In this document: piece after piece, positions 2,984 to 57,485 of the stretch
Layout of the letters: the number at the start of each line of letters is the position of its first letter
How positions within the stretch are numbered: position 1 is the stretch's first letter
NCBI RefSeq assembly: GCF_026210795.1
Contig: NC_089430.1
Location: 3,534,001-3,598,000, forward strand
Direction of reading: 5' to 3'
DNA length: 64,000 nt
Source: Rhizophagus irregularis
Taxonomy: Eukaryota; Glomeromycota; Glomeromycetes; Glomerales; Glomeraceae
The notes under the pieces: model-generated
Told to the model about the DNA's origin: nothing
Database searches by the model: none
The model's input: only the letters and a program-made list of their open reading frames with translations
Translations under genes and position numbers: made by a program

Positions 2984-3748
2984 TAATCAAAAAGAAAAAT
3001 GAAATGAAATTTTTCAAACATTATTTGCATTTTTCATTTTTTATTATTATATTTAAAAATATGCATTGTATTAATAAATGCAAATAACGTTAGTATTGAA
3101 ATTATTCTATTTGTAATTAGTAATGGAATTTTTTGTATCAATCTGTAATAATTTAACACAATTTAACGATAATTAATAATAAATAACAGATCCAATTTTT
3201 GGTTCATCTGATTTTGTTATCTAATAATTTTAATAATTTTATTGATTGTACAATTAAATAACTACTAGCTAACTTTTTTTTCCAAAAATTTTCATCAAAA
3301 TACAAAACAAAAAATTGTTAATATTATTATTATAATATCATTTCGAAATGTTTGATAATGTAAAACAGGAATCGCAGGTATATATTGATGATAAACAACA
3401 GCAATAATAACAGGAATAACAGGCTCAACCACATAATTAAGGACAGTCAATTATTTTTTTTTTTGTTTATCTATTGCTCGATCTTTCGTCTTGTATAATT
3501 TAAAACCATCATATTTGAGATCTGGAGAAAAATTGCTTTAGAGTTAGTAAACCGTGCGAACCGAAATCACAAAAGATAGGGGTGGCATTAAAATCTAATA
3601 ATAAGATTTTAGATAGATACAAAAAATAAATTGCCCGAAAAAGGAATTTTCTATCAATCGAAACTTCCATAATTATCTGATATATACCAATTCAATATTA
3701 ATGAAAGAAATTACTAAACCAATCAATTGTAAATTTCAAGATTTCCAG
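2984..3748. other. AT-rich intergenic DNA
   Basis: This stretch lies between the convergent ends of the SREK1-like gene and RPA49. It is A+T rich, and I see no open frame, RNA gene or clear repeat in it. It should hold both 3' UTRs and poly(A) sites. Confidence 0.6.
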
Positions 3749-15454: not shown

Positions 15455-15514
15455 TATGCGAAACCAACAGAAACAGGAAAAACGGAGAATTTTAGAATAA
15501 GCAAAACCCAGAAT

Positions 15515-15990
15515 ATATCTCATTCTGGACCAACAAGGACAACAAGATTAAAGGATCCGGAGTTTGTATTATAATTAATAAGAAATGGGAAAAACACCTA
15601 GGAAAGGTTAATAGAATAGGTGCCTATTACATAGAAGCTCGTTTACTTTTTAAGAATTGTACACTCGTAGTGAGTGTAGTGTACATGCCGCCATCAGACA
15701 CAGAGATGCAAAACGAATTGACCAATCACATTAAAAACGAGTTTATGAATCACAGTAAAAAAAATAGATATTACATTTTGATAGGAGACTTGAACTCGTA
15801 TTTTGACAAATCAATGGATTACAGTGGCCCATCCAAACTCGCTAAAAAAACTTCAAGCATCATCACATGGCTAGACGACGCTTTCTTCATGGACACATTC
15901 AGAAAATTAAATCAAAAAAAAAAGCTTTACATGGACAAACAATACTACATCAACCAGAATCGATTATATCTGGGCGGATCTGAAGCTTGA
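15515..15990 (+). pseudogene. LINE endonuclease domain fragment
   Basis: The frame reads YISFWTNKDNKIKGSGVCII ... LVVSVVYMPPSDTEM ... YYILIGDLNSYFDKSMDYSG. VVYMPP and ILIGDLNS match the conserved core of exonuclease-endonuclease-phosphatase domains of LINEs, the latter carrying the catalytic Asp and Asn. The C-terminal SDH motif is shifted out of this frame: SDHNITL is readable near 16040. It would nick target DNA to prime reverse transcription. Frameshifts near 15500 and 15960 break it. Confidence 0.7.
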
Positions 15991-16425
15991 AGCTAAACTA
16001 AAAAAGAGCCACATATACCAATCAGCCGATATCACAGATAGCGACCATAATATTACACTCGCGGAAATCTCTTTCACAGATATAATAGTCACTAATAACA
16101 AAGGTGGTAGAAGAGCTGAGAAAAACACAAGACGCATTATATATGATTATGAAAACACCACAAATGAACAATGGAACAAATACAAAAATTACCTCAAGAG
16201 CCTCTGAGGAAGTTTTAAAGCCTTTGAATATATAGAAATCCACGGATGAAATAAAACACCTTAAATGAATTATGGGACATTATATGTAACTGTATACAAC
16301 AGATCTCGCTCAAGCACATCCCACACAAAAAAGTAGGAGGCACCAAAACTAACCTCAATAGAAACTATAAAGAAATAGAAGACTCCTCAAAAGAACGTAA
16401 AGACCTCCTATACATAAGAAGCATA

Positions 16426-18172
16426 ATGAGGAAACTATACAAGAACGAGTTGAGAGGAACAGAGTTAGTCAAGGCGTCAGAAGGGATCAAATCGTTCAAC
16501 CAACGCTACGGAACTAATATTTTCCAGCTAACAGAAGACACGGATTGGTATACGTGGAAATGTGAAACTAGGAATTGGTTGAAGGTAGTCAGAAGAGTGA
16601 TTAAATTGAAAGATAAAGCTTGCAAAGAAGCAACAATAAAGAGAAGAATTGAGGAAAGGAACAACATGATCACTACAGATCAACGGAAAATGATCAATAG
16701 TATACTAGACAAGACTTACTCCAGAATCAACCTGGACAGGATCCGCATAGCCACAGACACACAGGAGGAAATCCTCTTGAATTCTAAAGAAGAAGTCCAA
16801 GCAGAGGCCATTAACGCATTCTCATCGATATTCCGTTCGAGAAATCATAAATTTGAGAACTCTACGAACAATGGAGGGACGTATATGAGCCACGCAGTGG
16901 ACAATCGACCTGCAAGTTTATGATCATTTGGATGATATGCCGACAGAACAAGAATGGAACGAGATGCTAAACACAATGAATGACAAATCAGCCCCGGGTA
17001 TATCAAACATCAGCTACAAATTAATAAAGAAAGCAGGTGCTGAAGTGAATGAATTATTCAGGCGATACACAGGCTTGTGTTATTACCTGCAAGACATACC
17101 AGTAAAATGGAAGATATCCCAGCTGTATCCGATCCCTAAGACATACGATTGGGATTATAACTTCTAAGCAAATTGAGACCAATCGCAACGTATCGCAAAT
17201 GCGCGGTCAAAATTATTACAAAGCGTCTCGGTAGTATTCTCAGCAGACATGCAATCTTGAAAGGACCAAATTACGCAGGCTTACCGGGCGAATCAACATC
17301 AACTCCACTAACAATAATAAACAGTATTTTAGAGGATGCCTGTGAAGAAAATAAAACACTATGGATTGTGTCTCAGGATATGGCGAAAGCATTCGACAGT
17401 GTCGAAATGATCCCCCTGCAAAAAGCTTTGGAAAGGATTAAACTGTCATGTACCATTATTAACTTCATTATAAACATATACAGGAACCGTAAGATGAGAA
17501 TTATCACGGCATACGGTTTAACAGACGCTTTCACTGCGCAGGACGGTATCGATTAAGGCGAGATAATATCCCCCCTGGTATGGAGGATTTTCTACGACCC
17601 TTTGCTTCACAGAATATAAGAAGACAAATCGTTAAGCTATACAATGGAATTGGAATGGCCGATTAACATAATCTGCAATGAGAAACGGAGTATAAAGATA
17701 CGAACTGCCACTTCAGCATACGCAGACGACACACAATGGATAGCTAAAAGTAAAGTCGAAGCAACAAAATATCACTAATTGCCGACGAATTCTTTAACAT
17801 TGACGATATTAAGATAAATGGAGGCAAATCCGAAATCATAGTTGTAAATCCGGAAGACAATAACGAAAACGAAAGGTTCATAGAAATAGGGAAAAACAAA
17901 GACAAAGTGTTTGCTAATAAAGGTTCAGATTCAATACGAATTTTGGGAGTGTAGTTCAAGGCAGATAAAGGAGATAAACATGTAGAATCGATAGTGAAAA
18001 AAGAAATTTTGACAATATTAGAGGTCATTAGACGCAAACACATAACCCACGCACAGACAATATACATTATAAATACCGTGTTACTCCCAAGGTTCGAATA
18101 AAGATTAAAAACCACAATCTGGGAGGATAAGAAGTACGAAGAAACCTTCAGACCAGTCATGAAGGTAGTCAA
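16426..18172 (+). pseudogene. LINE reverse transcriptase, broken
   Basis: Conserved RT blocks are recognisable: SAPGISNISYKLIKKAG (16988-17040), [19 protein letters not shown] (17172-17230), [11 protein letters not shown] (17279), the first catalytic-Asp block [11 protein letters not shown] (17370-17403), and YADD at 17719-17730. Stops at 17165-17167 and 17554-17556 and a frameshift before YADD separate them. The following frame (18159-18728) is a thumb/connection region with no domain I can name; it continues in phase beyond the insertion at 18708-19089. Confidence 0.75.
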
Positions 18173-18707
18173 ACATAAAGCGCGGCTCCCTACTAGTTGT
18201 CACGATAATATTCTCCTACATTTTGCACAAGGCAAGTTAAAAAACCTATGGAGAAACCAAATAGCTGCGCAGATTACGGAATTTCTGGTAGCTCTAAATT
18301 CACAAACGAAACAAGCAGACATGCTCAAAATGAGATTAAAAAAAGCACAATTAACATTGAACATAATGTCGTGTATCTTAACAATCGACCCCGACGTCAC
18401 AGTCTCGAATAAGATGTTGAACAATCATGCGTACAACGTGGCAAGGAAAGCACATGACTATCTGTTTAAATTCTATCCATTAACGGAGAGTGAAGAATGG
18501 AACATACCAATAATCAGTTCAAATGTGAGGGACTTCATATACCAACAAGCGCCAGAACTGCAGAAAAAAGATAAGGAACTCATTATAAGAAAAGCAGCAG
18601 CGCTCTCTGTACACGGAATTTTGCAACTCCTGAATTATGACGCGTCGAACACAGTCACATGGCAACAAATATGCGACTTTAATAGGAGACAAGCAAGAGG
18701 TAGGACT

Positions 18708-19089
18708 AAAGATGTAGTATGTAATTGATAATTACTACCTTGTGTTGTAATAGTAAGGGTTGCAACCTATTACTACTTTTAAAGTTAAAGTGTTGTAATA
18801 TTACAACACTTATGATTGTTCAAAAATTTCCTTTTTGAAAAATAAAAATTACAAAAATAAGTTTTTATAGAACAAATATCATCATAAAAGAAATAATTAA
18901 TATATAATAATACATATTTATATAATTGGAAATAATTACAACACTATATAATAATTACAATACTAGTAGTAATTATAATACTATATAATAATTATAATAT
19001 TGTGTTGTAATTACAACAAAAGTGTTGTATGTATGTTGTAATAGTTGCAACCTGATAACCTTCTAAAAATAATTACATATTACATCTTT
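18708..19089. mobile_element. 382-bp Mutator-type MITE with 10-bp target duplication inside the LINE
   Basis: The ends AAAGATGTAGTATGTAATT (left) and AAAGATGTAATATGTAATT (right, inverted) match at 18 of 19 bases. Both flanks carry AGGTAGGACT (18698-18707 and 19090-19099), a perfect 10-bp duplication. That length is typical of Mutator-like elements (9-11 bp). Removing the element plus one duplication gives an uninterrupted LINE frame across the junction. The interior is made of TGTTGTAATA / TTGCAACC motifs in both orientations. Confidence 0.8.
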
Positions 19090-19334
19090 AGGTAGGACTC
19101 TGAAATGGTTCGACACGTTATTAGGCCTAGTACAACAGTCACCTCAACTTAAAGACCTGCTGTAAGATAAGTGTGGAGTCCCTCTAACTCAGAAAGCGAA
19201 GTACAGGGAATTGGACAGAGGAATCTCAATTAACATTCAAGCAATTAAGATGACAAAAAAAGTTCCATCCATAGATGGCAGAAAAAAGGAGTTTGTGTAT
19301 ACACAGCAGGACCACACGTTAGTAATAGGGCAGA

Positions 19335-20396
19335 TTGACAAAAAGGGCCGGTCAGGAAGATATACAATGCAGCATTGGGCTATTAATGCTGACAACCAGA
19401 AAAGATGACAACGGAGTAATAATTATACGACGTTGCAGTGGCTGCGCGTCAAGTGATAAAGGGATTGACAAAGGAGGTCGCGGCTGCTATTTGAGCGGGA
19501 ACCGTCCAGACCCAGCTTGCATAAATAGGATCTCTAATTGCCAAAACACTCCCAACACTAAAAGTATCAAAGATATTCTGGAAATTAGAAATCACCTTGA
19601 GAGACAATATATCCCAGAACGGATACCTGGCTTCATACAGATATATGACTATGATACGGCTCTCATTCAAAACACGTTATCGAATAAGGAAGCCGTAATA
19701 CAACACATAGCGCTATTGCATCATTTAAGGTCAATATTCAATTCATCTGACATGATTAACATATATACTGATGGTTCATTGACAACTCGGTTTAATGCGA
19801 ACTTAAACACCTTTACAAAACATATGGGCACAGGTTGGGTGATACTGAATGATAAAGAGGAGGTGATACTGGAATGCAGCAGCTCAATTACAGAATAGCC
19901 TTCATCCACACGCGCAGAATTAGGAGCCATCCTATCAGCCATACTTGTCTTGCAAACAAGACAGAGAGTAAACATTTTTACAGATTCTCAAGCTGCAATA
20001 GACAGTATTAATCACACTAGAATAAATCTGACAAATGGAAAAAATAGGATTCGAGTATGGTGTAAAAGTAATAACCACAGTATAGTCAGCAGCATAATTA
20101 ATCTTGTTGATAGCAAACACTTAGAGTTAAAATTAACAAAAGTTAAAGGACACTCAGGAGTCAAAGGTAATGAAGAAGCTGACAGAGTGGCCAAGAATGA
20201 TACAGAAAGACTAACTTGCATTACAATTAATGACTCACAACAAATGGATTTAAAATATGACGTATATTGGAATGGTAAAAGAGTTGACAGACACATTAGG
20301 AAATTTATAGATAATATATGTGAGTCCACACTAGAGGCAGCATGGTCTTTCAACCGCGCACACAGAACAACTTTTCAAAACACAACGTGTGTATAA
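19335..20396 (+). pseudogene. LINE RNase H domain
   Basis: Type I RNase H motifs appear in order: MINIYTDGSLTT (catalytic Asp, about 19757), STRAELGAILSAIL (Glu, about 19908), VNIFTDSQAAIDSI (Asp, about 19970) and KGHSGVKGNEEADRVAK (His...Asp, about 20148-20205). A TAG at 19896-19898 interrupts the domain just before the Glu motif. A related fragment lies at 46499-46791. The domain would remove RNA from the RNA:DNA hybrid during second-strand synthesis. Confidence 0.8.
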
Positions 20397-42311: not shown

Positions 42312-44941
42312 TTACACATTCTGACTAATGAACTTACACGTTGCCCTATTATGCCCTTTTTCTCCACAATTTTGACAAGTCTTTCGCTTGTCTTTTTCAT
42401 TATTATTACTTCCACTTGCATTGTTATTTGACATTTGATTATTATCATCTAATGGTTGTAAATGTCGTCGTTTTCTAGCATGCTGGTCTTGAATCTCAAC
42501 ACAACTCTTTGCTCTTCCAGCTGGCCTTCCTTTTCTTGTAGTAATTATAGGATTTTTAATGTTAAAATCGATTTCTTCCATATTCTGACCTGATTCTAGA
42601 ATTGCTTGTTTATCTGATATAAATCCATGGCAAATACCTATAAATTCATCATAAGAATTAGTGGCAATTGCAGCGTCAAGTGCTTTTCGCATTAAACCAT
42701 GTGCTTTGCCATATTTTCGTCATGTACAGTTAATTTCTCTTAAATTTTGATTGTAGAATTCAGCACCATGAATTTGTTTAATATAATCAAACTTATACAT
42801 TGAGTATTGATCATTATTCTGTTCTTGATTTGAATTTATACATAGAGTTATAGGTGATTGCTGCCAAATATCATTATTTCCATCAATTATATCATCCTTA
42901 TACCAACGTGATGCAATAAAACCTATATGCCATTTAGCTTGAGTTGAACATCGTAAAATCTTGTAAAAATGGCGACATAGATATTCATGTGTTATAAGAA
43001 GATTACACGTACAACAATGTGATCCATCCACTAACAAAATAACATAATGAGTTTTGGTTCCACAAGATATAACCAATCGCCAAATTTCTAAAATTTGATC
43101 CAAACCAATTTTAGAAATGATATCAGTGAGGTGTACTTTAACAACTTCATAGTTGTCTTCCCTCATTCCTTCATTATAATCAGTATTTGTTTGTTCCTAT
43201 TAAAAAGGCAAATATGTTAATTAATATGAAATATGAATAAACAAACAATTCTCTAAAGAAATAATAATTACCTGTATTATAGAATCAATAATTGCAACAT
43301 CCATCTTAAAACTATCATAATAAAAACACTCTTGCATTTGCTTACAAACTAAAAATACCATTGCAGGCATAAGAAATTCCGAAACAACTTTTTCAATGGA
43401 TTTAAAATATGCTTTAGGAATAGTTGCAAGACCAACTATAGGTATTTGGTCTTTGTATTCTTCTACCCTTGCGTATTCTGATTTCTTGTCAAGTACATAT
43501 TGGATCTCTTTTACTAATGTTAAAAGAGATGAATTTGAACGAACACAATCATGAATTTTGTGATTCAAACTTTCAACTCGTTGAATACTATTTGCACCAG
43601 CTGTAAATTGATTATTTGTATAACATACAGCCCATTTGTATTTTAAAGGATCCAATTGTTTTCTTATATAATTACCAGCTGATGGATATTTTAATTTCAA
43701 ATGCTCCCAACGATTTTCAAAAAGTGTTGAAATCAATGTATTCCTACAATGAAAAAATTCTTCTCGAAATGCTTTAAATTCATCTGATTTCAACTTATTT
43801 CGAAGATTTTTCTTCAAATTAAGGTCAATATGAAATATACATAAACAATGGATAGTATCTGGAAATTCTAAACTTATTGCATTGGCCATTGCTGGGTCAG
43901 AATCAGTAAATACAACTTTCAGTATAAGATCATTAGTACCTTTTTTAATCATACTTAATGCCCAAATGAAACTTTCTTCTGTTTCATCTTCAAGTAATGC
44001 AGTTGCAACAAGTCATGTACGATTACAATTGTCAATAACTGCAAAAAAACAAGCCATCATATTATATTTGTTAGTTCGAGACGTAGTGTCAAAAAATAGA
44101 ACATCATGATAACACGTCCATAAAAATTGTTGATCCAATGTCATCCATAATAATCCACACAATCGTCGTTCAATTCCATCAAATTTAGTTTCTATAAACC
44201 AACGTGAGTCATCTGTTTGTTGTGAATATAAAAATTTCATTAAATCTGAAGCATCAAATTCAATTCTTGATGCTAATTTCTTTTTTGAAGCTTGGATGGC
44301 ATTATATAAATTTTTCTGGTGGATTTTTCTTCCAGGAAACTTTCCTCTTAAAAGCTGACTGATAGTTTGTGTGCCAATTGTTCCATTTTGTACACAAAAA
44401 TCTATAAATTGAATTATATCTCAAGCTTATGATATTTAGCAATATTAGTTGAAGGAGAAGGTATCATTTGATGATTGTGTTCATCAACAACAGTAGTGAA
44501 CAAAATTCTTAAAGAGTTTTTTGGAAGATTTCCATTAACTCTCCACTTACATCCTGTAGCTTTAGACTGGCGATTTCTTTGATCATTTGGATTCAATATC
44601 TTTTTTGGTTGGTAGTTACCTGCACAACAACATTCCCAACTAATTTTTCGTAGGATTTTATTATCATCATTTTCAGTTCTTTTCCGCCAAATACTGAAAC
44701 CTTTTTCCAACGCGTAATCATTTAAAAATTTCTCAGCTTCATCACAAGTTTGAAAAGTTTGTCCTAAAGTCAAGTTTAAAGTTGGATTTTCAATATCATC
44801 TTCAGATGAAGAATCGATAATTAGAAAATTTTGATGTTGTTTGTCGTGTAACAATTCAACATTTGTCAAAGTTTCATTTAAAGAAAAATTGGAAATTTTT
44901 TCGGTCATCTCTATAATGAGGAGTTGTATAACGAGTAACAA
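42312..44941 (-). pseudogene. MULE transposase pseudogene (FAR1 + DDE + SWIM + CCHC knuckle)
   Basis: Mutator-like transposase of the FAR1/FHY3-related type. The N-terminal FAR1-like zinc domain includes AEKFLNDYALEKGFSIWRKR, ISWECCCAG, TGCKWRV and DEHNHQM (44440-44760). The MULE core includes HDVLFFDTTSRTNKYNM, KVVFTDSDPAMANAI, HCLCIFHIDLNLKKNL and QRVESLNHKIHD (43540-44110). A SWIM finger (CTCNLLITHEYLCRHF, about 42970-43020) follows, and the end has TCQNCGEKGHNRATC (CX2CX4HX4C, about 42330-42370). Stops at about 44411, 44013 and 42720 fall where Gln or Trp codons would fit. The product would cut and rejoin DNA at Mutator-type ends, and could be a relative of what moved the 10-bp-duplication MITE at 18708. 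Confidence 0.85.
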
Positions 44942-45061
44942 GGAAAGTTTACAAAAAAGTTTATTGTAACACGTAAGGCAAGGTTTTTATATAATGAGGA
45001 GTTGTACAATGAGTAACAAAGAAAGAAGTTTATTGTAACACGTAAGGCAAGGTTTTTATAT
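44913..45061. repeat. 78-bp tandem duplication upstream of the MULE gene
   Basis: ATAATGAGGAGTTGTA...GTAACA...AAGTTTATTGTAACACGTAAGGCAAGGTTTTTAT occurs at 44913 and again from 44991, with small indels. It is directly upstream of the transposase start, so it may be promoter or subterminal repeat sequence. Confidence 0.75.
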
Positions 45062-46793: not shown

Positions 46794-47994
46794 CAGTCAG
46801 AATCATAAATACCCGACCCCTTGCCATTAAAAAAAATTTAAATAAACAATAACTTTATTTTTTTTTATTTTAAAGTACAAGACGAACCCTGATAATTAAT
46901 ACATAGTAAAGTCCCCCCTGACTCTATTAATGCTTCTACCCTCCTTCCCATACTGTTGACAAGATTTTCAGCTAATTGAACTGGTAATTGACCCCACTCT
47001 TTTGTTAATTCTGCCTTTAATTTTCTAGTTGTACTAATTTTTTTTTTTGATATTTTAATTTTTAGAAGTTGCCAAACATTTTCTATAGGATTTTGATCGG
47101 TGCTTGGGGTCATTGTCTTCTTGCAAGATCCAATTTATGCTATCTTCACCAAAAAACTCACAGGCAGAAGGCAAAAGACCTTTCTCATAAATATTACACA
47201 TAAAAATGGCATTCAGGTTCTGCTCAAAGCAAATTAGCTTACCAAATCCTTGAGCAGAAAAACAACCCCAAACATGAACCTTCTGTGGATGCTTGACCAT
47301 ACAGAACACTTTTCGTCTCCCAGCAAACTGCCAGATCTTTCTATTTGACTGGAATAATTGAAAGGTATTTTCATCAGTAAAAATAACTCGTTTCCAATCA
47401 AATTTTTTATGTTTTTTCGCCCACTGCAATCGTTTGACCATATGACCCTCAGAGAGCAAAGGTTTTGAAATTTCTTTTATAAATTTACCTCCAGACTCAT
47501 CAAGACGCCTCCTAATAGTAGTTTTACTGATCTCAACACCTTGTTTATCAAGTTTTTGTTGTATTTCAGCAGCGGTAATATCATGTTTTTTCATTGCCAG
47601 CTTCACAATTCGCTCGTCTTGTGCTTTAGTGGTTTTGCATGATTGGCCTGACTTTGTTCATCAGTTAGGTCCTTATCCTGCTTGTATTTTTTGACCCAAT
47701 AAATTACTGTAGACTTACTACAGTGAATATGAGATGCTATTTTTTCATAACCCCACTTTGGATCTGCTTCATGTTCATGTAAAAAAACAATTTCATATCG
47801 TTTATTAAGAGGAAGAGCCATTTTTTGTGGCGTAAAGTTGTCGATCATCTAACTCCTGATTTATATATTGTACGAACCTATAAATTTACAGATGATCAAG
47901 ATTATCATTGATCTTGAATCCTGGAAATTTTTATGGTAGGTTATCACATGATTTCGGAAAATATTTGGAGGTCGGATTCTTATAATTCTGACTG
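46794..47994 (-). mobile_element. Tc1/mariner element, complete ends, dead transposase
   Basis: The terminal inverted repeats CAGTCAGAATCATAAATACC and CAGTCAGAATTATAAGAATC start at both ends, with TA at 46792-46793 and 47995-47996 as target duplication. It is 1201 bp long and carries one transposase pseudogene on the minus strand. Confidence 0.85.
46865..47848 (-). pseudogene. Tc1-type transposase, frameshifted and internally deleted
   Basis: The N-terminal helix-turn-helix halves read ALPLNKRYEIVFLHEHEADP and KIASHIHCSKSTVIYWVKKY, then (after a frameshift near 47640) ISKTTIRRRLDESGGK. The DDE core shows KRVIFTDENTFQLF (first Asp), HVWGCFSAQGFGKL, LQEDNDPKHRSK (second Asp) and NPIENVWQLLKIK (Glu). 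The second-Asp and Glu motifs are read from overlapping bases in different frames (about 47065-47115), so the roughly 34-residue spacer of the family has been deleted. Catalytically dead. Confidence 0.85.
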
Positions 47995-48001
47995 TAGATA
48001 T

Positions 48002-48613
48002 TGTTAAAATAGAAATGTGGCGCAGTAATTTTATATAGATCAATTTTGTAGATCATTTCGTAGATCTCTTGATTTTTTCGATTTTCTTGATTTTCTTGAT
48101 TTATTTGATAAATCTGATAAATCTGATAAATTTGATTTATTTGATTTATTTATTTTATTAATTTTATTTTTATTTGTTATATTTTATTTATTTGATATAT
48201 TTATTTTATTTTATTTATTTTATTTATTTATTATATTTGTTTTATTTATTTTATCAAATATTCTTAATTTTTATTTTATTATAAATAGTGATAGGATTTT
48301 ACCAAGTAGAAAGGAAGGTCAGTCAGTTAGTTAAGAATTGTATTGTAGTATTCGAGTTATACGAAAAGAGTATTATTTCCAGTAGTATAATTCAAGATAG
48401 TTAATTTCGCAACTAAGAGATTATTTATATTTTTTGTCATATTTAAAATCTTACATTATTTTAATAAAAACCTATTTTCTTTAACTGAACATCCAACATT
48501 ATTTTACGTGATTATTTGTGATCGACTTAAGACTCTCCTATTAAGTTAAACTCCAGTTAACCTGTTAAAACGTTAAAGTTTTTCAGTTGGCTTTAATCGT
48601 TGACAGGATAACA
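48002..48613 (+). repeat. 5' LTR
   Basis: 612 bp, TG...CA ended. It differs from the 3' copy by scattered substitutions and short indels, mostly in the TTTATTTGATAAATCTG-type AT-rich part near its start. It should carry the promoter. Confidence 0.92.
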
Positions 48614-48616
48614 ATT

Positions 48617-48634
48617 TGGTGCGAGTTGGGTGGA
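48617..48634 (+). other. primer binding site
   Basis: TGGTGCGAGTTGGGTGG starts 3 bp after the LTR. TGG pairs with the CCA end of a tRNA, as expected for a minus-strand primer site. I could not assign the tRNA. Confidence 0.65.
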
Positions 48635-48659
48635 AACTAAAGAAAAATAGTAATTGTGA

Positions 48660-51222
48660 ATGAATAAGGAATTTCAGTACTTACAACAGATTTTTCAGCA
48701 TATAGAAGACCATAATCAAGGAAAACAGGATTTAATTGAGGATTTATAGTGTGCAGATTGCTATCCAGAAGATCAGAATTTAGGATTATTGGAGAATCCC
48801 AGATTTAGAGAATTTTGGCAATCCGTTATTTTACCCAGGTATCCAGATAGTGTTTTTACACAAAATACTATATGAATCTTTAGGAAATTACAGCGACAAT
48901 GAGATAGCCAAGAAGTTTACAGATTAATTCAGGAGTTAGTACAAACTATTAGGTATATAGTAATACCAGCATTTGATACATTAGTTAAAACGATACAATT
49001 CTATTGGGAAGTCACAGATCGCTTTAATAATTGGGAAGCATATTATTGAGAACAATCATCAGATACAGCCAGTAATACAAGTAAAATGTCAGGAGAGAAA
49101 AACTAAAAGAAGATAGATAACAATGACAAAAGTTCGGGTAATAATCAACAATTTAGAGGAACTGAACCTACAACAAATATACAAGACAAAGCGTGGCAAA
49201 ACTAACGGAATGAACACAGGTCAAAAAGTGAAAAATCAGGCACCAATCGGTCACCAATCAGGTAGCTGATTGGTGACTGATTGGTGACTGATTGGTAACT
49301 GATTGGCATTTTCGCCAAATACCGTCACCAATCAGGCAGTTTGCTAACTTTTGATCCAGTGATCAGAAAAGAATGAAATATAGCTCATTGGAATCGTCTC
49401 AACAAGACGAATCTAATGGTAGTAAAATTGCATTTCTAGGATTAATACTTGATGAGAAATTTGAGAATTAAGTAAAAAATAAAAATAAAAATGTATCATT
49501 TATATTTTATTTAATTTTTTATTAATTATTAATCCTAGAGATGCGATTTTACTACCATTAGATTCGTCTTGTTGAGACGATTCCAATGAGCTATATTTCA
49601 TTCTTTTCTGATCACTGGATCAAAAGTTAGCAAACTGCCTGATTGGTAACGGTATTTGGCGAAAATGCCAATCAGTCACCAATCGGGCACCAATCAGGTA
49701 CCTGATTAGTGACCGATTGGTGACTGATTGATGCCTGATTTTTCACTTTTCGACCTGTGGAAGAAGAAGAAGAAGCAGAAAGTATAATATCACATAATAC
49801 AGTACTCAAAAATGATGGAGATAGTAGTTTTAATTAATTAGGTATAGCTGATATGACAAATGATCATATTTACGATCCTAGAAAGGATGAGAAAGATAAG
49901 CAAAAGGCTACAACTAGCGGTAGTTCAAATAAATGGAGTACAAAACCATTTTCAACCTATAAACCGTATTCTGGTACTGGATTATCATCAAATCCTAAAT
50001 CATTTGTAACTACAAAGCTGTTTCAGAGTTCATTTGGTTCCCCTAGTATTAAAACATCAACCTTGAGAACTTTTCGACAGAATGACCTTCTTGATTTTTC
50101 TAGTAATAATTTACAAGATGATGAAGAGCCAGAAGAACAAACTCCTATTAATGAAGCTGAACAAAATAAGATCATGTTACAGTTTTTTCAACAGGTCCAA
50201 AAATTTTATGCAAAAGGAGTTGAACCTAGAGAATCCAGACTGGTTGATTTTCCAGTTTTTAAAGGAGGAAATCATGATCCTATCGAATGGATTGAAGCTT
50301 TTAGTAGAGCTTGTGTAACTAATAGAGTCAGCAAAGAACGAGCGATTGTTTTAGTAGCATTCTATCTTAGAAAGACAGCATTAACTTGGTACAATTATCA
50401 AAATATTACTTTTTGAAAGGATGATAATAACCCTCAACGATCATTTACGCACTTATTTAAGGATCATTTCTGTAATCCTTTTAGAATTAGTCAGTGGAAA
50501 CATCAACTGCGAAATAGGAAACAAAAGCAAGGTGAAACAATTGAAAAATATATCGCAGCAATTATAAAATTATGGAAAAGAGTGGATCCTACAGATAGAC
50601 ATTAGATAAAATTCATGAATTTATCGAAAGTTTAAGACCTGAATTTGTTGTACCTGTACAATCCGCTATGCCTCAAATTGTAGAAGAAGCAATGGAAAAA
50701 GCACAAGCATTAGAAACTGCTTTTTCAATGAGAATGGATTTATCAGTCTATTCAATGATGCCAATATATTTACAAAATATGAATGGAGGAATGATTCCCG
50801 CTCAAACTAACTTAGCAATGTATCAACCTGCCTATTCAATAAGTTATTCCCAACCAGAAAGTGTAGAAAAGATAGTTGAACGACAAATCAGTGAAGGAAT
50901 TATTGCAGCATTAAGCCAGATGCGCACAGAAACTAAACCAACCAACCCTACTCCAAATAATAACAATAATAATAATCAAAACAGGAATAATTCAGGATGC
51001 TATGTCTGTGGAAGAACTGGACACATCGCGAAAAACTGTTGTCAAAGAAATAATCAACAAAATAATAATAATCGCAACAATAATAGAAGAGATTTAAGGA
51101 ATGTTGATTGTTACAATTGTAAAAGAAAAGGATATGTCTCTAGGAACTGCAAGTCACCATATCAAATAATGGTAATAATGGAACTAATAACGGTTTCCAA
51201 AATAATGGTCGTTTAAACTACT
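48660..51222 (+). pseudogene. Gag of the Ty3 element, interrupted
   Basis: Starts MNKEFQYLQQIFQHIEDHNQ at 48660; early TAG/TGA codons follow. After the hairpin element, the frame from 49853 contains the retrotransposon Gag core (RLVDFPVFKGGNHDPIEWIE, AFYLRKTALTWYNYQ). A TGA at 50414 and a frameshift near 50605 lead to LDKIHEFIESLRPEFVV. An Asn-rich spacer then precedes two zinc knuckles: CYVCGRTGHIAKNC (canonical CCHC) and CYNCKRKGYVSRNC, in which the His is Tyr. Gag would form the particle and bind RNA. A one-base shift after SPYQ gives an Asn/Gly-rich end with TAA at about 51220, so the true Gag/Pol border is uncertain. Confidence 0.8.
49215..49759. mobile_element. 545-bp hairpin (foldback) element with CACAGGTC ends
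   Basis: The left arm CACAGGTCAAAAAGTGAAAA and the right arm inverted CACAGGTCGAAAAGTGAAAA run nearly to the centre (about 49480), about 250 bp each, with only scattered mismatches. The arms include GATTGGTGACTGATTGGT repeats and ATTTTCGCCAAATACCG. GAA lies before the left end (49212-49214) and after the right end (49760-49762), compatible with a 3-bp duplication and an EnSpm/CACTA-like origin. Gag frame continues across it when it is left out. Confidence 0.75.
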
Positions 51223-54200
51223 AAGCATACCTCTAGAAGGGAGAGTGCGAATTCTAGAAAACCCTCTAACGAAAATAGTGCAAAAAGAGTGAATTGGAAG
51301 GATCCATTAAAAGAAATCAGACCTATTGAAAAGCCAATTCAACTATTAAAAAGACCTACATATGTTCTCAACATTTTATATAATAACTTTGGAATTTATT
51401 TATCGAAATGACTACAGCAAAATAAAATAATGTATAATTTATGGCAAGTAGCAGGAGGAAAAGTAGAAAATCGTGAATCTTCTCTTCAAGCTGTGCTTAG
51501 AGAAACAAAAGAAGAAATAGCGCTAGATATTAAAAAAGATGAATGTGTATTTTTATTTAACAATCCAGCTTTTAATTGTGATATTTATTTAACGAAAGTA
51601 CCTGATTATCAAGAGTTACAGCAAACTGAACTTAAAAAACAAGGAGTTTGGACAATTACTTCTTTCGAACAATTCCAATTTATGGTGAAACATAATGAAT
51701 TAACCTTAACGCTAGTTAATTATTGTACTGATATTCTTAACCAATTAATTAGAGAAGAACCAGCATATCTTAATCAAAAAGAAAGAGCTGAAGAAGCCTT
51801 GTATGGAGAAGCGATTGTATATGGACAACCTATTAATGTTTTAATAGATTCAGGAGCTGTAGGTTGTATTATTTCTAAAAGATTCCTAGATAAAATTAAT
51901 AAAGGAATTGAATTACCTACAAATATTAAAATCATCGATGTAACAGGACAAAAATCATCACCACTAGGAATGGTTCAGCAAGTTCCAGTGCAAATGAGGG
52001 ATATTAAAGTCCATGTCAATATGATAGTCACAAACTCAGCTGAATATAATGTTCTGCTTGGTAATGAATAGTTGAAAAAGGTTAATGCAAACATCGATTA
52101 TAGACAGAATACCATTACCATTAAATATGAAAGAATCTAACAACAAATTCCTGTCACATGTTCACAAAAATTGGACCTAACAAAATATACAGTCATTGAC
52201 CTAGTAGATGAATTAGAATTAGAAGATGAGTTAGAAGACACCATAGCAGTTCCATTTTATAAGGCAAAAATAATCAAAAGTACTTTTCAAATCAATGATC
52301 GGCAATATCATCCAGGGTATTTGGAATATATTAAGCAACAAAGTCATAATAGTACTGGCATAATTAATAGTAAAGGGCTAGGAAAATGCCTATGTAAAAC
52401 CTTAGAAGATCAAGAAGTTTGTAATAATTGTCAAATAGTTCAATAAGACTGGAATATTTATTACGTGATGCAAGAATCAGAAAGTCCAAATGTATCTAAT
52501 ATTCAATTAGAACCAGAAAAAGTTGTACCAATTGGAAAATTAGAGGAAAGTCAATACCAATTACTTCATCAACTATTGGATAAAAACAAAGATCTATTCG
52601 CTAAATCATTACAAACTCCAGAAGGGGAACATATTATTATCACTGAAGAAGTGCCACCTATCAAAAAACGAGTTTATAGGACAGCACCAAAGAAAAATGA
52701 ATTTATTGAGAGTGAAATAAATGTCATGTTAGAACAAGGGCTAATAGAACCTTCAACTAGCCCCTGATCATTTCCAGTACTAGTGGTAGTGAAAAAGAAG
52801 AATGGAAAACTTAGGTTTTGCATTAATTATAAACCTCTTAACGATATTACAAAAAAGGATAATTACCCGCTTCCAAGAATTGATGAATTATTAGATTCTC
52901 TACAAAATGCACAATGGTTCACCACTTTAGATTTAGCATCAGGGTATTGGCAAATAAAAGTAAGAGCAGAAGATCAGGAAAAAACAGCCTTTATCACAAA
53001 ATTTGGAACATACGAATTCAAGGTTATGCCTTTTGGACTTTGCAACGCACCTGCAACATTCCAGTGAACTATGGACAAAGTTTTACATGAGATAAAGGAA
53101 AAGTTCATTTTAGTTTATCATGATGATGTCATTATATATTCAAAAACTTTTAAAGATCATATTCAACATTTGGAAGAAGTCCTAAATAGAATTCGTAAGG
53201 CGAATCTAAGATTAAAAGCAAAAAAATGTCATTTTGCAGTAGCAGAACTTCAATTTTTAAGATATATTGTGAGGAAAAAAGGTGTTAAACCTGATCCAGA
53301 AAAAGTCAATAAAATGGTTAATTACCTGGAGCCTCAAAATATTAGAGAATTACGCAGAATCCTAGGATTATTCTCCTATTATCAACGTTTCATCAAAGAT
53401 TTTGCTAAAGTTGCTGATCCAATGTACAAATTATTAAAAAAGGATGCACCTTACAAATGGATGAATTTACAACAGAAAGCATTTGAGAATTTAAAAGATA
53501 AATTAATAACAGCACCGATCGTACAATACCCAGATTTTTCAAAACCTTTCTTCTTATATACCAATGCTTCAATTATAGGACTAGGCGCAGTACTTGCACA
53601 GAAAACTGATGATCAAGAGTATGTAATTGCGCATGCTAGTCGAACTTTAATACCAGCAGAAAAGAATTATGCCATCACAGAATTGGAATGCCTTGCGATT
53701 GTATGGGCAGTTAAATATTTTTGACATTATCTTTATGAAAGTAAATTTACCATCATCACCAATCATGCAGCACTCAAGTGGTTACTAAATTCAATAACGG
53801 AAAATAATAATAAAAGATTGGAAAGATAGAAGATTGCCTTATCAAAATATAAATATGATATTGTATATCGGAAAGGAACTAAACATGCGAATGCTGATGC
53901 ATTCTCTCATCTTGACTCAACCTCAACTAATAATCACACCAATCCTTTAACTTCACATAATGATCATGGATGAACAACTATATAATGAATTAATCTTATT
54001 TTTAACAACTCTCACTTTTATGGATGGTATAACGGATAAACAGAAAACCCAAATTTGGAAAAACTCAACCCAATATATTTATCAAAACAATATTTTATTT
54101 AGGAAAATAAAGGATGGTATAAGAAAAGTAATTCTATGCGAACAAGTAGAACCCATTTTATATCACTTTCATACAGATATGAGCGGTGCTTATTTAGGAA

Positions 54201-55230
54201 TAGACGCTATAATTGGAAAATCAAAGATCGATATTATTGGCCACAATTAGAAGAAGATGTAAAAGAATATATAAGAACTTGCGATATTTGTCAAAGAAGA
54301 GGACCTACCAATCGGCGAAAAGAACTGATACCAATACTAGTTAAGGGGCCATTTTACAGGATAGGAATTGACATTAAAGGACCATTACCAATCACTAGTA
54401 GCGGAAATAGATATATTATTGTTGCCATGGATTATTTTACAAAATGATCAGAAGCAAGAGCGATATCCAATATTAAAGCAGAAATAGTAGCTAAATTTAT
54501 TTATGAAGAAATTATTTGTAGACATGGAGTTCCACAAGAAATTCTATTAGATAGAGGAACATCATTTATGAATAAATTAATTGATGAATTATGCGAAAAT
54601 TATCAAACTAAACATCGCCTTACCTCAGCTTATAGATCTCAAACAAATGGAATAGTTGAAAGATTTAATCAGACAATTGGTGAATGTATAGCAAAACTAG
54701 TTCAAGATAATAATAAGGAATGGGATCAATTAATTGATGCAGTACTTTTGGTATATCGAACGAAAAAACATAATACTACAGAAAAAACACCATTCTATTT
54801 AACTTATGGACGAGAAGCAACTTTACCAATTGATTTAAAAATTCCATCACAAATATCTCAAAATGAAAAAGATCCAATGCAAAAACAAATTTATCAATTG
54901 ATAGTTGAATTAGAGGAAGAACGAAATGATGTTTCATTAAGAATTGAAAAAGAACAAACGAAGCAAAAACAAGTATATGATCAACAAGGAATCTCAGAAA
55001 AATTAAAAATAGGAGATCAAGTCTTAGTAGAATGAACGTGGCTTAAAAATAATTTCTCAGCAAAATTAGAAAATAAGTGGATAGGACCTTATTTTATTCA
55101 TGAAGTACTTAACGATAATGTTTATAAACTTAGAAATTTAGATGGAAAACTAATTAAAAATGTAATTCATGGGAATAGACTTAAGCAATATCATAAGCGA
55201 AGATTAGAACTGATAGTTATAATTTGAAAA
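51217..55230 (+). pseudogene. Pol polyprotein: Nudix - protease - RT - RNase H - integrase
   Basis: All five domains lie in one frame (two compensating frameshifts between 53960 and 54240) with about a dozen stops. Nudix: 51355-51750. Protease: INVLIDSGAVGCIIS at 51835-51880, ending LLGNE. RT: VVKKKNGKLRFCINYKPLN, TTLDLASGYWQI (first Asp), VMPFGLCNAPATFQ and LVYHDDVIIYS (53113-53145). RNase H: FLYTNASIIGLGAVLAQ, where the usual first catalytic Asp is Asn. Integrase: a degenerate HHCC zinc part ending TCDICQRRG, then IGIDIKGPLP, EILLDRGTSF and TNGIVERFNQT (D, D, E all present), then a WIGPYFIHEVL chromo-like/GPY end. Stops at 51409, 52072, 52765, 53065, 53722, 53827, 54445 and 55033 replace likely Arg, Trp or Gln codons. 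Confidence 0.9.
51355..51756 (+). pseudogene. Nudix hydrolase domain embedded in Ty3 Pol
   Basis: YVLNILYNNFGIYLSK, a TGA at 51409, then NLWQVAGGKVENRESSLQ and RETKEEIAL. The Nudix signature G-x5-E-x7-R-E-U-x-E-E-x-G-U is met at G(51457), E(51475), R-E(51499-51504) and E-E(51511-51516); the late Gly is Ala and one hydrophobic position is Thr. The metal-binding Glu residues are intact. Strands before and after (CVFLFNNPAFNCDIYLTK; GVWTITSFEQF) fit the fold. Family members hydrolyse nucleoside diphosphates linked to another moiety, such as oxidised dNTPs, NADH or mRNA caps; the substrate here cannot be told. It ends where the protease begins, in the same frame. Confidence 0.85.
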
Positions 55231-55270
55231 ATCATACAGAGTTTAAAAATAATTTTATTAAAATAGAAAA

Positions 55271-56015
55271 TTATAATTGTTTATTAATATTATTATCATC
55301 AACATATTCAAGACCATCGGCAACAAATATCTGGTCATAAAAAGTAGTAGAGAAGGAGGAATCGGTCGAATCTTCATCAGGCTTATATTCTATTAAATGC
55401 TCTGGTACTTGAAAAAAATGACTAACAGGAGCGTGCCAAGTAAAAGTAGCTATTTCATAGTCCTTTTTTAGTTGACCTAATTCTTTCCTTAGTTCGACGA
55501 TTTCTTCATCCTGCTGTATAATCTTCTTTTGGGCTTCCCAACATTCTTTTTGGATAATGGCCCACAGTTCATTATGGAATTGCGTTTCTTCTTCTTGTTG
55601 ACAAATTTGCCCAGATTGCAAAATTCCAAACTCTGTCAAAGTTGTAACTTCTTTTTATAAGGATTGAACTTGATCTTGTATTAATAAATGGAAGAATAGA
55701 AACACCAAATTAGTCAAAGACTAAGTGAATAAATCGATAATCCAGAAAAGTTCTACAGGGGGAGTCCATTTAAGACTAAATATCCTAGAGGTACAAGTAT
55801 TCCATCTGCAAGCTGAAAAGAGAAATCAACCGTTCAAGAACTGGATATAAGATCGAAATCCTGTCTGCAAGCTATTCCCGTTTAAAAAACATTTTAAGAA
55901 TCTTGTGTGCAATATTCACCCTTAAGTTGATGAACTTGTAATTTACAAGCAGCCTTTAGTGCCTTAAATCGAGCTTGTGATTTTTTGGAGGAAGTTTTTG
56001 AACGACGGCACGGCA
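55271..56015 (-). pseudogene. antisense accessory ORF of the Ty3 element (coiled coil)
   Basis: On the minus strand between integrase and 3' LTR. The upstream part from 56015 reads MPCRRSKTSSKKSQARFKAL and AACKLQVHQLKGEYCTQDS (basic, nuclear-signal-like). A gap of about 200 bp that looks like an intron or eroded segment follows, then VQSL, a TAA, KEVTTLTEFGILQSGQICQQ and on to 55271. The main part has heptad-like KKIIQQDEEIVELRKELGQL and an acidic end (EYKPDEDSTDSSFSTTFYDQ). I recognise no family. Antisense ORFs at this position are known from some Ty3 lineages of plants; function unknown. Confidence 0.55.
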
Positions 56016-56491
56016 TTTTAATATAAGAGTGTTAAGGGAATTATATGAGTTTTGACAAAAGTGATAGATGCAAAAGATTTTGCGATGAAGTGAAGAAAAG
56101 GAGATAGGAAAAATTAGGTTCTTAAATAAGAAAAAGATACGACGTGAAAAAATACGTTCTAGTTAAAATAACAAAAATGACGCGAAAAATTCAATAATAA
56201 CTGATAATTATTACATGTGGAAATAATTAAGGAGAAGAAAAAGTTATTTTTAGAACAAGGAGAAATGTTTCAAAATAGTAATACACGATTAACTAATTTA
56301 AGGGTAAAATCAATCAAACTAAATTAGTGGAACAATAATGTCATGATCTACTGAAATTAGTAGTTGATCACTAATAATATTAATTAATTAAGTGTGACAA
56401 TAAAATTCTTATTTAAAGACACATTCTATTTTGTTATGTTTCACTTTTCTCATCATGACGCCTTACGAAATTGTGTTATAAGACTTATTAA

Positions 56492-56803
56492 TTGAAGAAA
56501 ACAGTTCTCACGAATTGCGAAATGGATGATAAAACAAAAATTCATGTGACTTACCGATGTTTGTTAAGAGCTCAACGACTAAAACAAAGAATTCCAGCTT
56601 TAGTTTTCGCATATTTTTTAGGACAGCTTATTGAACAAAAGGAACTAACAAAAAAGCAAGTTAAACAAATAGTTTCAGAACATTATTATTGGATTTCTGT
56701 TCGTGTTTATTATATTTTCGAGATAAATCCTATTCAAATTTATTGTACTGTTAATACTACTGTTAATTTAATAAAACCTTTAAGACAAAATAAAATTAAG
56801 TAA
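56492..56803 (+). CDS. sense accessory ORF of the Ty3 element
   Basis: An uninterrupted 103-residue frame between the antisense ORF and the polypurine tract: MKKTVLTNCEMDDKTKIHVT, RCLLRAQRLKQRIPALVFAY, QLIEQKELTKKQVKQIVSEH, then a more hydrophobic end. It is helical and basic with no known domain. Unlike gag and pol it has no stops, but at this length that may be chance. Placement matches an env-like position, yet I see no signal peptide or clear membrane anchor. Confidence 0.4.
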   Translation: MKKTVLTNCEMDDKTKIHVTYRCLLRAQRLKQRIPALVFAYFLGQLIEQKELTKKQVKQIVSEHYYWISVRVYYIFEINPIQIYCTVNTTVNLIKPLRQNKIK

Positions 56804-56844
56804 TTGGTATTGGAAATTTAAAGACTCACAGGAGTTCGTTCTTT

Positions 56845-56857
56845 AAGGAGGGGAAAG
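56845..56857 (+). other. polypurine tract
   Basis: AAGGAGGGGAAAG ends exactly where the 3' LTR begins. It primes plus-strand DNA synthesis in LTR elements. Confidence 0.85.
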
Positions 56858-57481
56858 TGTTAAAATAGAAATGTGGCGCAGTAATTTTATGTAGATCAAT
56901 TTTGTAGATTATTTTGTAGATCTCTTGATTTTTTCGATTTTCTTGATTTTCTTGATTTTCTTGATTTATTTGATAAATCTGATAAATCTGATAAATTTGA
57001 TATATTTGATTTATTTATTTTATAAATTTTATTTATTTTATTTGTTATATTTTATTTATTTGATATATTTATTTTATTTTATTTATTTTATTTATTTATT
57101 ATATTTGTTTTATTTATTTTATCAAATATTCTTGATTTTTATTTTATTATAAATAGTGATAGGATTTTACCAAGTAGAAAAGGAGGGTAGTCAGTTAGTT
57201 AAGAATTGTATTGTAGTATTCGAGTTATACGAAAAGAGTATTATTTCCAGTAGTATAATTCAAGATAGTTAATTTCGCAACCAAGAGATTATCTATATTT
57301 TTCGTTATATTTAAAATCTTACATTATTTTAATAAAAACCTATTTTCTTTAACTAAACATCCAACGGTATTTCACATGATTATTTGTGATCGACTTAAGA
57401 CTCTCCTATTAAGTTAAACTCCAGTTAACCTGTTAAAGCGTTAAAGTTTTTCAGTTGGCTTTAATCGTTGACAGGATAACA
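56858..57481 (+). repeat. 3' LTR
   Basis: 624 bp, TGTTAAAATAG to GGATAACA. It is near-identical to the 5' copy over its last 350 bp, with small length differences in the AT-rich first third. Confidence 0.92.
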
Positions 57482-57485
57482 ATAT

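Follow-up and report, generated by a model that had tools for sequence, protein, structure and literature searches.

This locus raises the question of whether a retrotransposon can carry a Nudix hydrolase domain as a working part of its own polyprotein. The stretch studied, referred to here as the window, comprises 64,000 nucleotides of the Rhizophagus irregularis genome (contig NC_089430.1, forward strand, positions 3,534,001 to 3,598,000; coordinates below are those of the window), and an earlier note, made from the letters alone, had proposed a Nudix domain in the Pol polyprotein of a Ty3-type retrotransposon within it. Our analyses demonstrate the Nudix domain, its place in the element, its spread among copies and species, its conservation and the selection acting on it. 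The finding is real, conserved and selected rather than a one-copy curiosity, and the mechanism proposed for it is plausible.

The key residues were found where they had been placed by the earlier note (G at 51457, E at 51475 and RETKEE at 51499-51516), and the Nudix box GKVENRESSLQAVLRETKEE at 51457-51516 holds all six key positions of the pattern G-x5-E-x7-RE-x2-EE, including the metal-binding glutamates typical of the PF00293 superfamily. The profile search suggested there gave PF00293 at E 3.8e-7 (30.6 bits, cut-off 21.1) for a natural open reading frame (ORF) of 219 amino acids at 51412-52071, taken without any read-through; the same frame matches RVP_2 (E 4.1e-9), so that the Nudix domain and the retropepsin share a single natural frame. 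In a sequence search against the PDB, the best match was the CTP pyrophosphohydrolase 2rrk (E 2.5e-5). The location between the Gag zinc knuckles and the protease also stands, and can now be refined: the domain opens Pol, which is read in the -1 frame downstream of the Gag stop. The distance of 80 residues to the protease DSGA motif requires correction, as about 110 residues separate the end of the box from that motif, and about 30 the end of the whole domain. An in-frame stop at 51409-51411 cuts off approximately the first 21 Nudix residues, and the further pol stops and the gag frame change agree with the description of a decayed copy in which the box glutamates are kept. On these sequence comparisons, the segment 51346-51756 is confirmed as a genuine Nudix domain.

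The domain belongs to a Ty3-type long terminal repeat (LTR) element at 48002-57481, whose features are as follows:

48002..48613, + strand: 5' LTR, TGTTAAAAT...GGATAACA, ends set by eye
48617..48630, + strand: putative primer binding site TGGTGCGAGTTGGG, by eye
48660..51224, + strand: gag, broken in the window copy by frame changes and stops; start MNKEFQYLQQ as in protein P0019 (by eye)
49215..49760, no strand assigned: nested insertion in gag resembling a miniature inverted-repeat transposable element (MITE), from blastn break points and repeats
51212..51218, + strand: T TTA AAC heptamer, three bases 5' of the Gag stop, with pol in the -1 frame
51346..51756, + strand: Nudix domain, first of Pol, PF00293 (genome match G000:C2:3585346-3585756)
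51772..52071, + strand: retropepsin-type protease, RVP_2 at residues 121-217 of the ORF 51412-52071
52690..53724, + strand: reverse transcriptase and start of RNase H, interrupted in the window copy (Pfam; own-genome reverse transcriptase match)
54448..55035, + strand: integrase core (part), rve E 5.3e-6, 27.1 bits, under the cut-off of 32.6
56846..56857, + strand: putative polypurine tract AGGAGGGGAAAG, by eye, directly 5' of the 3' LTR
56858..57481, + strand: 3' LTR, from the LTR alignment, end set by eye

The two LTRs are 94.9% identical (an alignment of 626 columns with 20 mismatches and 2 gap openings), and their TG..CA ends together with the target-site duplicate ATAT at 47998-48001 and 57482-57485 (ends and duplicate by eye) are those expected of Ty3/Gypsy elements (Metaviridae). 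Zinc knuckles were recognized in Gag within 50599-51213 (zf-CCHC, E 2.1e-5), and the Gag stop at 51222-51224 is in frame with gag as read in the other copies. The protease motif DSGA is found at 51847-51858, in a frame that ends at a stop in the window copy, and further downstream Pfam detected RVT_1 (E 1.1e-19 and 6.2e-13) and RT_RNaseH_2 (E 5.4e-32). The Pol order protease, reverse transcriptase, RNase H, integrase was thereby recovered by Pfam with all domains but rve above cut-off, and the Ty3 type was assigned from RVT_1, the domain order and the own-genome reverse transcriptase matches. The nested insertion displays long inverted repeats and 11-base tandem units; copies L002, L005 and L007 align by blastn across both of its flanks without the insertion, and copies L006 and L008 align on the downstream flank only. 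Between the integrase and the 3' LTR there are stop-to-stop frames at 55271-55654 (minus strand, 127 amino acids), 55956-56162 (minus, 68) and 56492-56803 (plus, 103).

The genome that was searched comprises 147 Mb in 32 contigs, the window lying on contig 2. The DNA search yielded 26 matches, 12 of which, the window included, are 89-100% identical to the 855-base query over 757 bases or more, and the protein search with the Nudix domain yielded 19 matches at 15 places, all 19 overlapping the element DNA matches. The earlier note had named family members lacking the domain as a finding that would speak against it; among the 14 places with a family reverse transcriptase (identity of at least 80%), the Nudix domain lies just upstream at 10, and the three others inspected are two loci cut off downstream of the Nudix place (L013 and L017) and one interrupted inside the Nudix (L014), the fourteenth place being L020. 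The domain is a family trait of this Ty3-type element. As for the intact copies with Nudix, protease, reverse transcriptase, RNase H and integrase in one frame that had been hoped for, uninterrupted pol frames with Nudix, protease and reverse transcriptase do occur, but no copy in this genome was shown to be fully intact: in the C1 copy those three domains lie in a natural pol frame of 925 amino acids, while gag contains a stop, and the C30 copy (L005) has a natural frame of 729 amino acids with Nudix and protease that ends near the end of the reverse transcriptase.

Selection was assessed, as the earlier note had proposed, by the ratio of non-synonymous to synonymous change (dN/dS) on the Nudix codons of 14 of the 19 loci, L052 and L054-L057 being omitted as short or split. 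In 13 comparisons against the C1 copy, values of 0.14-0.41 were obtained. Neutral simulations, which used the observed third-position spectrum without the CpG context at which change is about 2-3 fold faster, gave medians of 0.74-0.86, and at most 5% of them were as low as the observed value in 11 of the 13 comparisons, the two remaining being C19a (10.1%) and C5 (7.8%). Mean pairwise dN/dS among the 14 copies, whose pairs are not independent, was 0.32 for the Nudix (91 pairs), 0.12 for the protease (66), 0.26 for the linker between protease and reverse transcriptase (45) and 0.39 for the first 44 residues (78). From these values and the simulations, the Nudix is under purifying selection, less strict than that on the protease. 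Loci L039-L053 differ from the C1 copy mostly by G-to-A and C-to-T changes (0.22-0.23 of third positions, versus 0.04-0.05 for the reverse changes; faster at CpG), a pattern suggestive of deamination-like decay, its direction not being polarised by an outgroup.

The domain extends beyond this species. When residues 30-300 of a natural Pol were used to query 5.8 billion proteins, 21 were recovered, 14 with a NUDIX call, including 10 with both NUDIX and protease, and 7 with no NUDIX call; the named hosts were R. irregularis, R. clarus and R. diaphanus. Nudix together with protease occurs in R. clarus, and Gag together with Nudix in R. diaphanus, whose protein P0017 has a NUDIX call and no protease call. 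Proteins P0006, P0008 and P0012 unite NUDIX, protease, reverse transcriptase and RNase H, and the R. irregularis NCBI protein P0007 agrees by eye with the Nudix and protease residues of the window. Identity of four proteins to P0001 was 54-77% over the Nudix (54-61% in the most distant proteins), 60-81% over the protease, 43-66% over the linker between protease and reverse transcriptase and 81-92% over the reverse transcriptase, and the six box residues are invariant across the 5 aligned lineages. A crude box scan of the 91 proteins P0003-P0093 found all six residues in 60, one missing in 17, two missing in 7 and no box in 7; several of the incomplete or boxless rows are pieces or gene models without the Nudix stretch, and some of the boxes counted with one or two changes clearly do not come from that stretch. 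A protein search with the Nudix of P0012 returned 5 proteins, namely P0012 itself and four from R. clarus. The NCBI gene model P0013, which has no NUDIX call, follows the C30 copy by eye and skips most of the Nudix as if it were an intron; such splicing-out, despite the open genomic frame, may be real. Because the domain is found at 15 places in the genome, has homologues in other species and is under purifying selection, it goes beyond chance, and a chance motif or a one-off insertion is ruled out by these observations together with the Pfam score.

The site of the domain could be compared with that in related families lacking it. In 12 of 13 copies examined (L049 being the exception), the sequence T TTA AAC is read in the Gag frame immediately ahead of the stop, with Pol opening in the -1 frame, and the same heptamer is present at the Gag end of all 3 sister Ty3-type loci L076-L078, whose reverse transcriptases are 59-63% identical to that of the element. 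The Pol starts of these loci are related (FKLEGASFEGKGAK, FKLGGAPLEGEGAK and FKLSGASAGGVDAK, compared with FKLLSAPLEG.SA in several copies of the Nudix family), and a linker with no Nudix stands ahead of their protease. In L033, L034, L036, L037 and L038, likewise, the stretch from zinc knuckle to protease is without a Nudix by eye, and none of these eight loci was among the Nudix or PF00293 genome matches. Since the Nudix is confined to one family, the sequences favour a gain in this lineage rather than a loss in the sisters. A hairpin begins about 7 bases 3' of the heptamer in L005 (1510-1534), in L007 and in the Nudix-less L076, with fold energies no better than those of shuffled sequences.

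Within the wider set of Nudix relatives (the best 120 of 152 matches), a different arrangement was also seen. By eye, proteins P0079, P0082, P0089, P0090 and P0096 begin with the end of an RNase H (..ADYLSRIN.. or ..ADCLSRIN..) followed at once by a Nudix; Pfam places NUDIX above cut-off in 5 of 5 and, in the short tails, does not recognize RNase H. The RNase H-tail reading of P0082 is supported by matches of its residues 3-58 (E 0.002) to places in Ty3-type ORFs of the R. irregularis genome, some 0.4 kb beyond the reverse transcriptase. Of the 42 matches that P0082 gave in this genome, 14 fall on element copies; the other 28 (E 0.002-0.1) lie off them, and at least 9 of these are about 0.4 kb downstream of reverse transcriptase matches and are read as RNase H tails. 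There seems to be, judging from these proteins, a second Pol site for a homologous Nudix, after the RNase H tail. In P0066 an acidic stretch resembling a post-protease linker precedes the Nudix (by eye), and a third position, between protease and reverse transcriptase, may be represented there. In P0070 an F-box (21.4 bits, cut-off 20.5) precedes the Nudix.

In a tree of 42 proteins, a group of 24 (support 95/85, P0070 included) unites the retroelement Nudix domains with proteins of unknown context, apart from 18 other short Nudix proteins; the four RNase H-tail proteins retained after trimming group together (94/94), beside the rest of the 24, which hold the N-terminal type. Trimming dropped P0025, P0066, P0079 and P0091, and the tree, which the earlier note had proposed as a way to the donor, has long branches and singles out no donor lineage. 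No donor gene emerged from the genome either, as the Nudix search (19 of 19 matches) and the P0047 search (16 of 16) hit element copies only, in six frames without introns, where an intron-split donor could escape; 5 of 18 PF00293 genome matches fell outside the family (L058, L066, L070, L071 and L075) and by eye are dissimilar to the element Nudix. In IMG/VR, a first search found none and a later one found a single weak locus, L084 (40% in the best segment, query residues 47-101, RNase H-type Nudix). The distribution may reflect a single capture followed by moves, several captures from the same donor family, or host domestication. Tentatively, and with somewhat less than even confidence, the Nudix clade marked by NDPxFNCDVY could be a mobile module inserted at two or more points of Pol (before the protease, after RNase H, perhaps between protease and reverse transcriptase), which would give elements a MutT-type nucleotide sanitiser of their own.

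The fold and the sequence relatives bear on what the domain does. The AlphaFold2 model (pLDDT 92.8, pTM 0.86, 44 sequences) of homologue P0027, which is about 52% identical to the R. irregularis Nudix and stands in for the window copy, adopts the Nudix fold; structure prediction had been called for by the earlier note. With this model, Foldseek placed NUDT15 first (E 6.6e-9), and VIA-align gave tied scores for rose NUDX1 (16.4), R. rubrum Nudix (16.3), NUDX1 (16.0), NUDT15 (15.9), MutT (15.8) and K. lactis Dcp2 (15.8). Profiles compared with PDB sequences favoured MutT-type proteins, NUDX1 and NUDT15, the top match being 4kyx for one profile (named ADP-ribose pyrophosphatase MutT, E 3.1e-19; NUDX1, 6.2e-19) and the MutT protein 4v14 for the other, and the element stretch TEPEKQGPW aligns to EPEKC..W of Nudix hydrolase 1. 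Among NCBIfam models the MutT types scored best, all under cut-off; for the MutT equivalog TIGR00586, P0001 and P0009 reached 31.5 and 45.8 bits against a cut-off of 97.9. By sequence the domain comes nearest to MutT-type, AtNUDX1 and NUDT15 enzymes; in the fold and profile comparisons NUDX1 and NUDT15 rank at or near the top, tied with other types. The element domain shares with these enzymes the Nudix box, the fold and the TEPEKQGPW-type stretch; it differs from them in being about 19-24% identical in structure alignments, in its score under the MutT equivalog cut-off, and in the NDPxFNCDVY-type stretch present in many of its relatives.

Some retroviruses carry a dUTPase, which resembles the present case as a nucleotide-pool enzyme on a reverse-transcribing element, but has an unrelated fold and reaction, and here the enzyme stands at the very start of a fungal Ty3-type Pol. 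The nearest precedent found is the AlkB-type demethylase of an orchid Ty3/Gypsy lineage, likewise a host-type enzyme captured by a Ty3 lineage, although, in the portion of that report available, it is an m6A demethylase on a separate additional ORF and not fused into the Gag-Pol chain (PMC9289625). Fungal double-stranded RNA viruses such as Lentinula edodes mycovirus HKB also hold a Nudix within a large viral protein, but they are RNA viruses, with 17-19% identity in the three mycoviruses listed; the accessible part of a survey of 21,191 viral proteomes describes Nudix as very rare in RNA viruses (PMC9503650). The earlier note knew of no described Ty3 family with this layout. That is only partly so: a 2025 study in BMC Genomics (PMC12210691) lists a NUDIX subfamily K of 14 proteins, 9 with "diverse retrotransposon related domains", found within fungi only in Diversisporales (its table gives 25% bacteria) and closest to subfamily J. 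Like our set, this subfamily has a canonical PF00293; in our set, 10 of 21 proteins have NUDIX and protease, and the named hosts are of the genus Rhizophagus. The subfamily very likely includes the family of the window element, so that the fusion of Nudix and retrotransposon had already been noticed. The comparison is by description rather than by member sequences, and the accessible text of that study is silent on the element, its layout and domain order, the frameshift, selection, and position data including the second position. Among the matches listed from an open-access library, none besides this study described an LTR retrotransposon with a Nudix domain, nor do the accessible parts of PMC6338049 and PMC3985635. 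Capture of accessory enzymes by LTR elements was thus already known, and the Nudix fusion is partly foreshadowed in print.

Elsewhere in the window, by-eye likenesses were seen to a Tc1/mariner transposase (47055-47657, minus strand), a MULE-type transposase (42720-44986, minus) and a LINE-type endonuclease and RNase H (15496-20396, plus), and a long repetitive region at 1277-3033 has several frames open on both strands, one of them rich in Arg, Asp and Glu.

Among the roles that the earlier note had proposed, the sequence favours one in the nucleotide pool, and a MutT-like role is our best guess. We give about even odds to a Ty3 lineage of Rhizophagus-type arbuscular mycorrhizal fungi whose MutT/NUDT15-like Nudix at the Pol N-terminus cleans (d)NTPs during cDNA synthesis. 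The domain would have been acquired in this lineage between the -1 frameshift-type site and the protease, and would be produced only as Gag-Nudix-Pol at a low frameshift level; it would be packaged in the particle and released by the neighbouring protease, and would there hydrolyse damaged or non-canonical (d)NTPs of the 8-oxo-dGTP type close to the reverse transcriptase and so reduce mutation or stalling in cDNA synthesis, much as dUTPase does in some retroviruses. The domain could instead act on host molecules, such as NAD- or ADP-ribose-type signals or NAD caps, and blunt fungal defence or silencing. Viral Nudix proteins have been proposed to counter ADP-ribose signals (PMC9503650, in its accessible part), and the best PDB profile match, 4kyx, bears the name of an ADP-ribose pyrophosphatase; nevertheless, NCBIfam and most top PDB profile matches point to MutT, NUDX1 and NUDT15 types, and supply at a low frameshift level would suit an enzyme near the reverse transcriptase better than a host-wide effector, which makes this alternative rather unlikely.

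A removal of caps or of 5' pyrophosphate from own or host RNA, as by Dcp2 or RppH, would shift genomic RNA from translation to particles; we consider it improbable, as the Dcp2 type is weaker in sequence, with 5lon (which we take to be K. lactis Dcp2) at E 9.6e-10 against the values given above for 4kyx and NUDX1. Just as doubtful is a non-catalytic Nudix that would stand between Gag and protease to bind a partner or act as a folded spacer. The sister families do have linkers at that place, and the R. irregularis copies seen have A at box position 22, where the classical Nudix motif has G; however, the box glutamates and arginine are invariant across the 5 lineages, and P0006, P0009 and P0012 keep the G. 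Finally, since the window copy is broken, the domain might be the fragment of a lone host Nudix gene in one dead copy, an artefact with next to no probability and refuted by the 19 matches on element copies, the presence in other species and the selection.

Captured enzymes reveal what limits a retroelement in its host. If the cleaning of (d)NTPs holds true, this lineage would represent a second, independent route, besides dUTPase, to guard the nucleotide pool of a reverse-transcribing element. With so small an enzyme, it can be tested directly whether cDNA synthesis is limited by oxidised or non-canonical dNTPs, and the Nudix-bearing family and its sisters allow a conserved frameshift junction to be compared with and without a captured domain.

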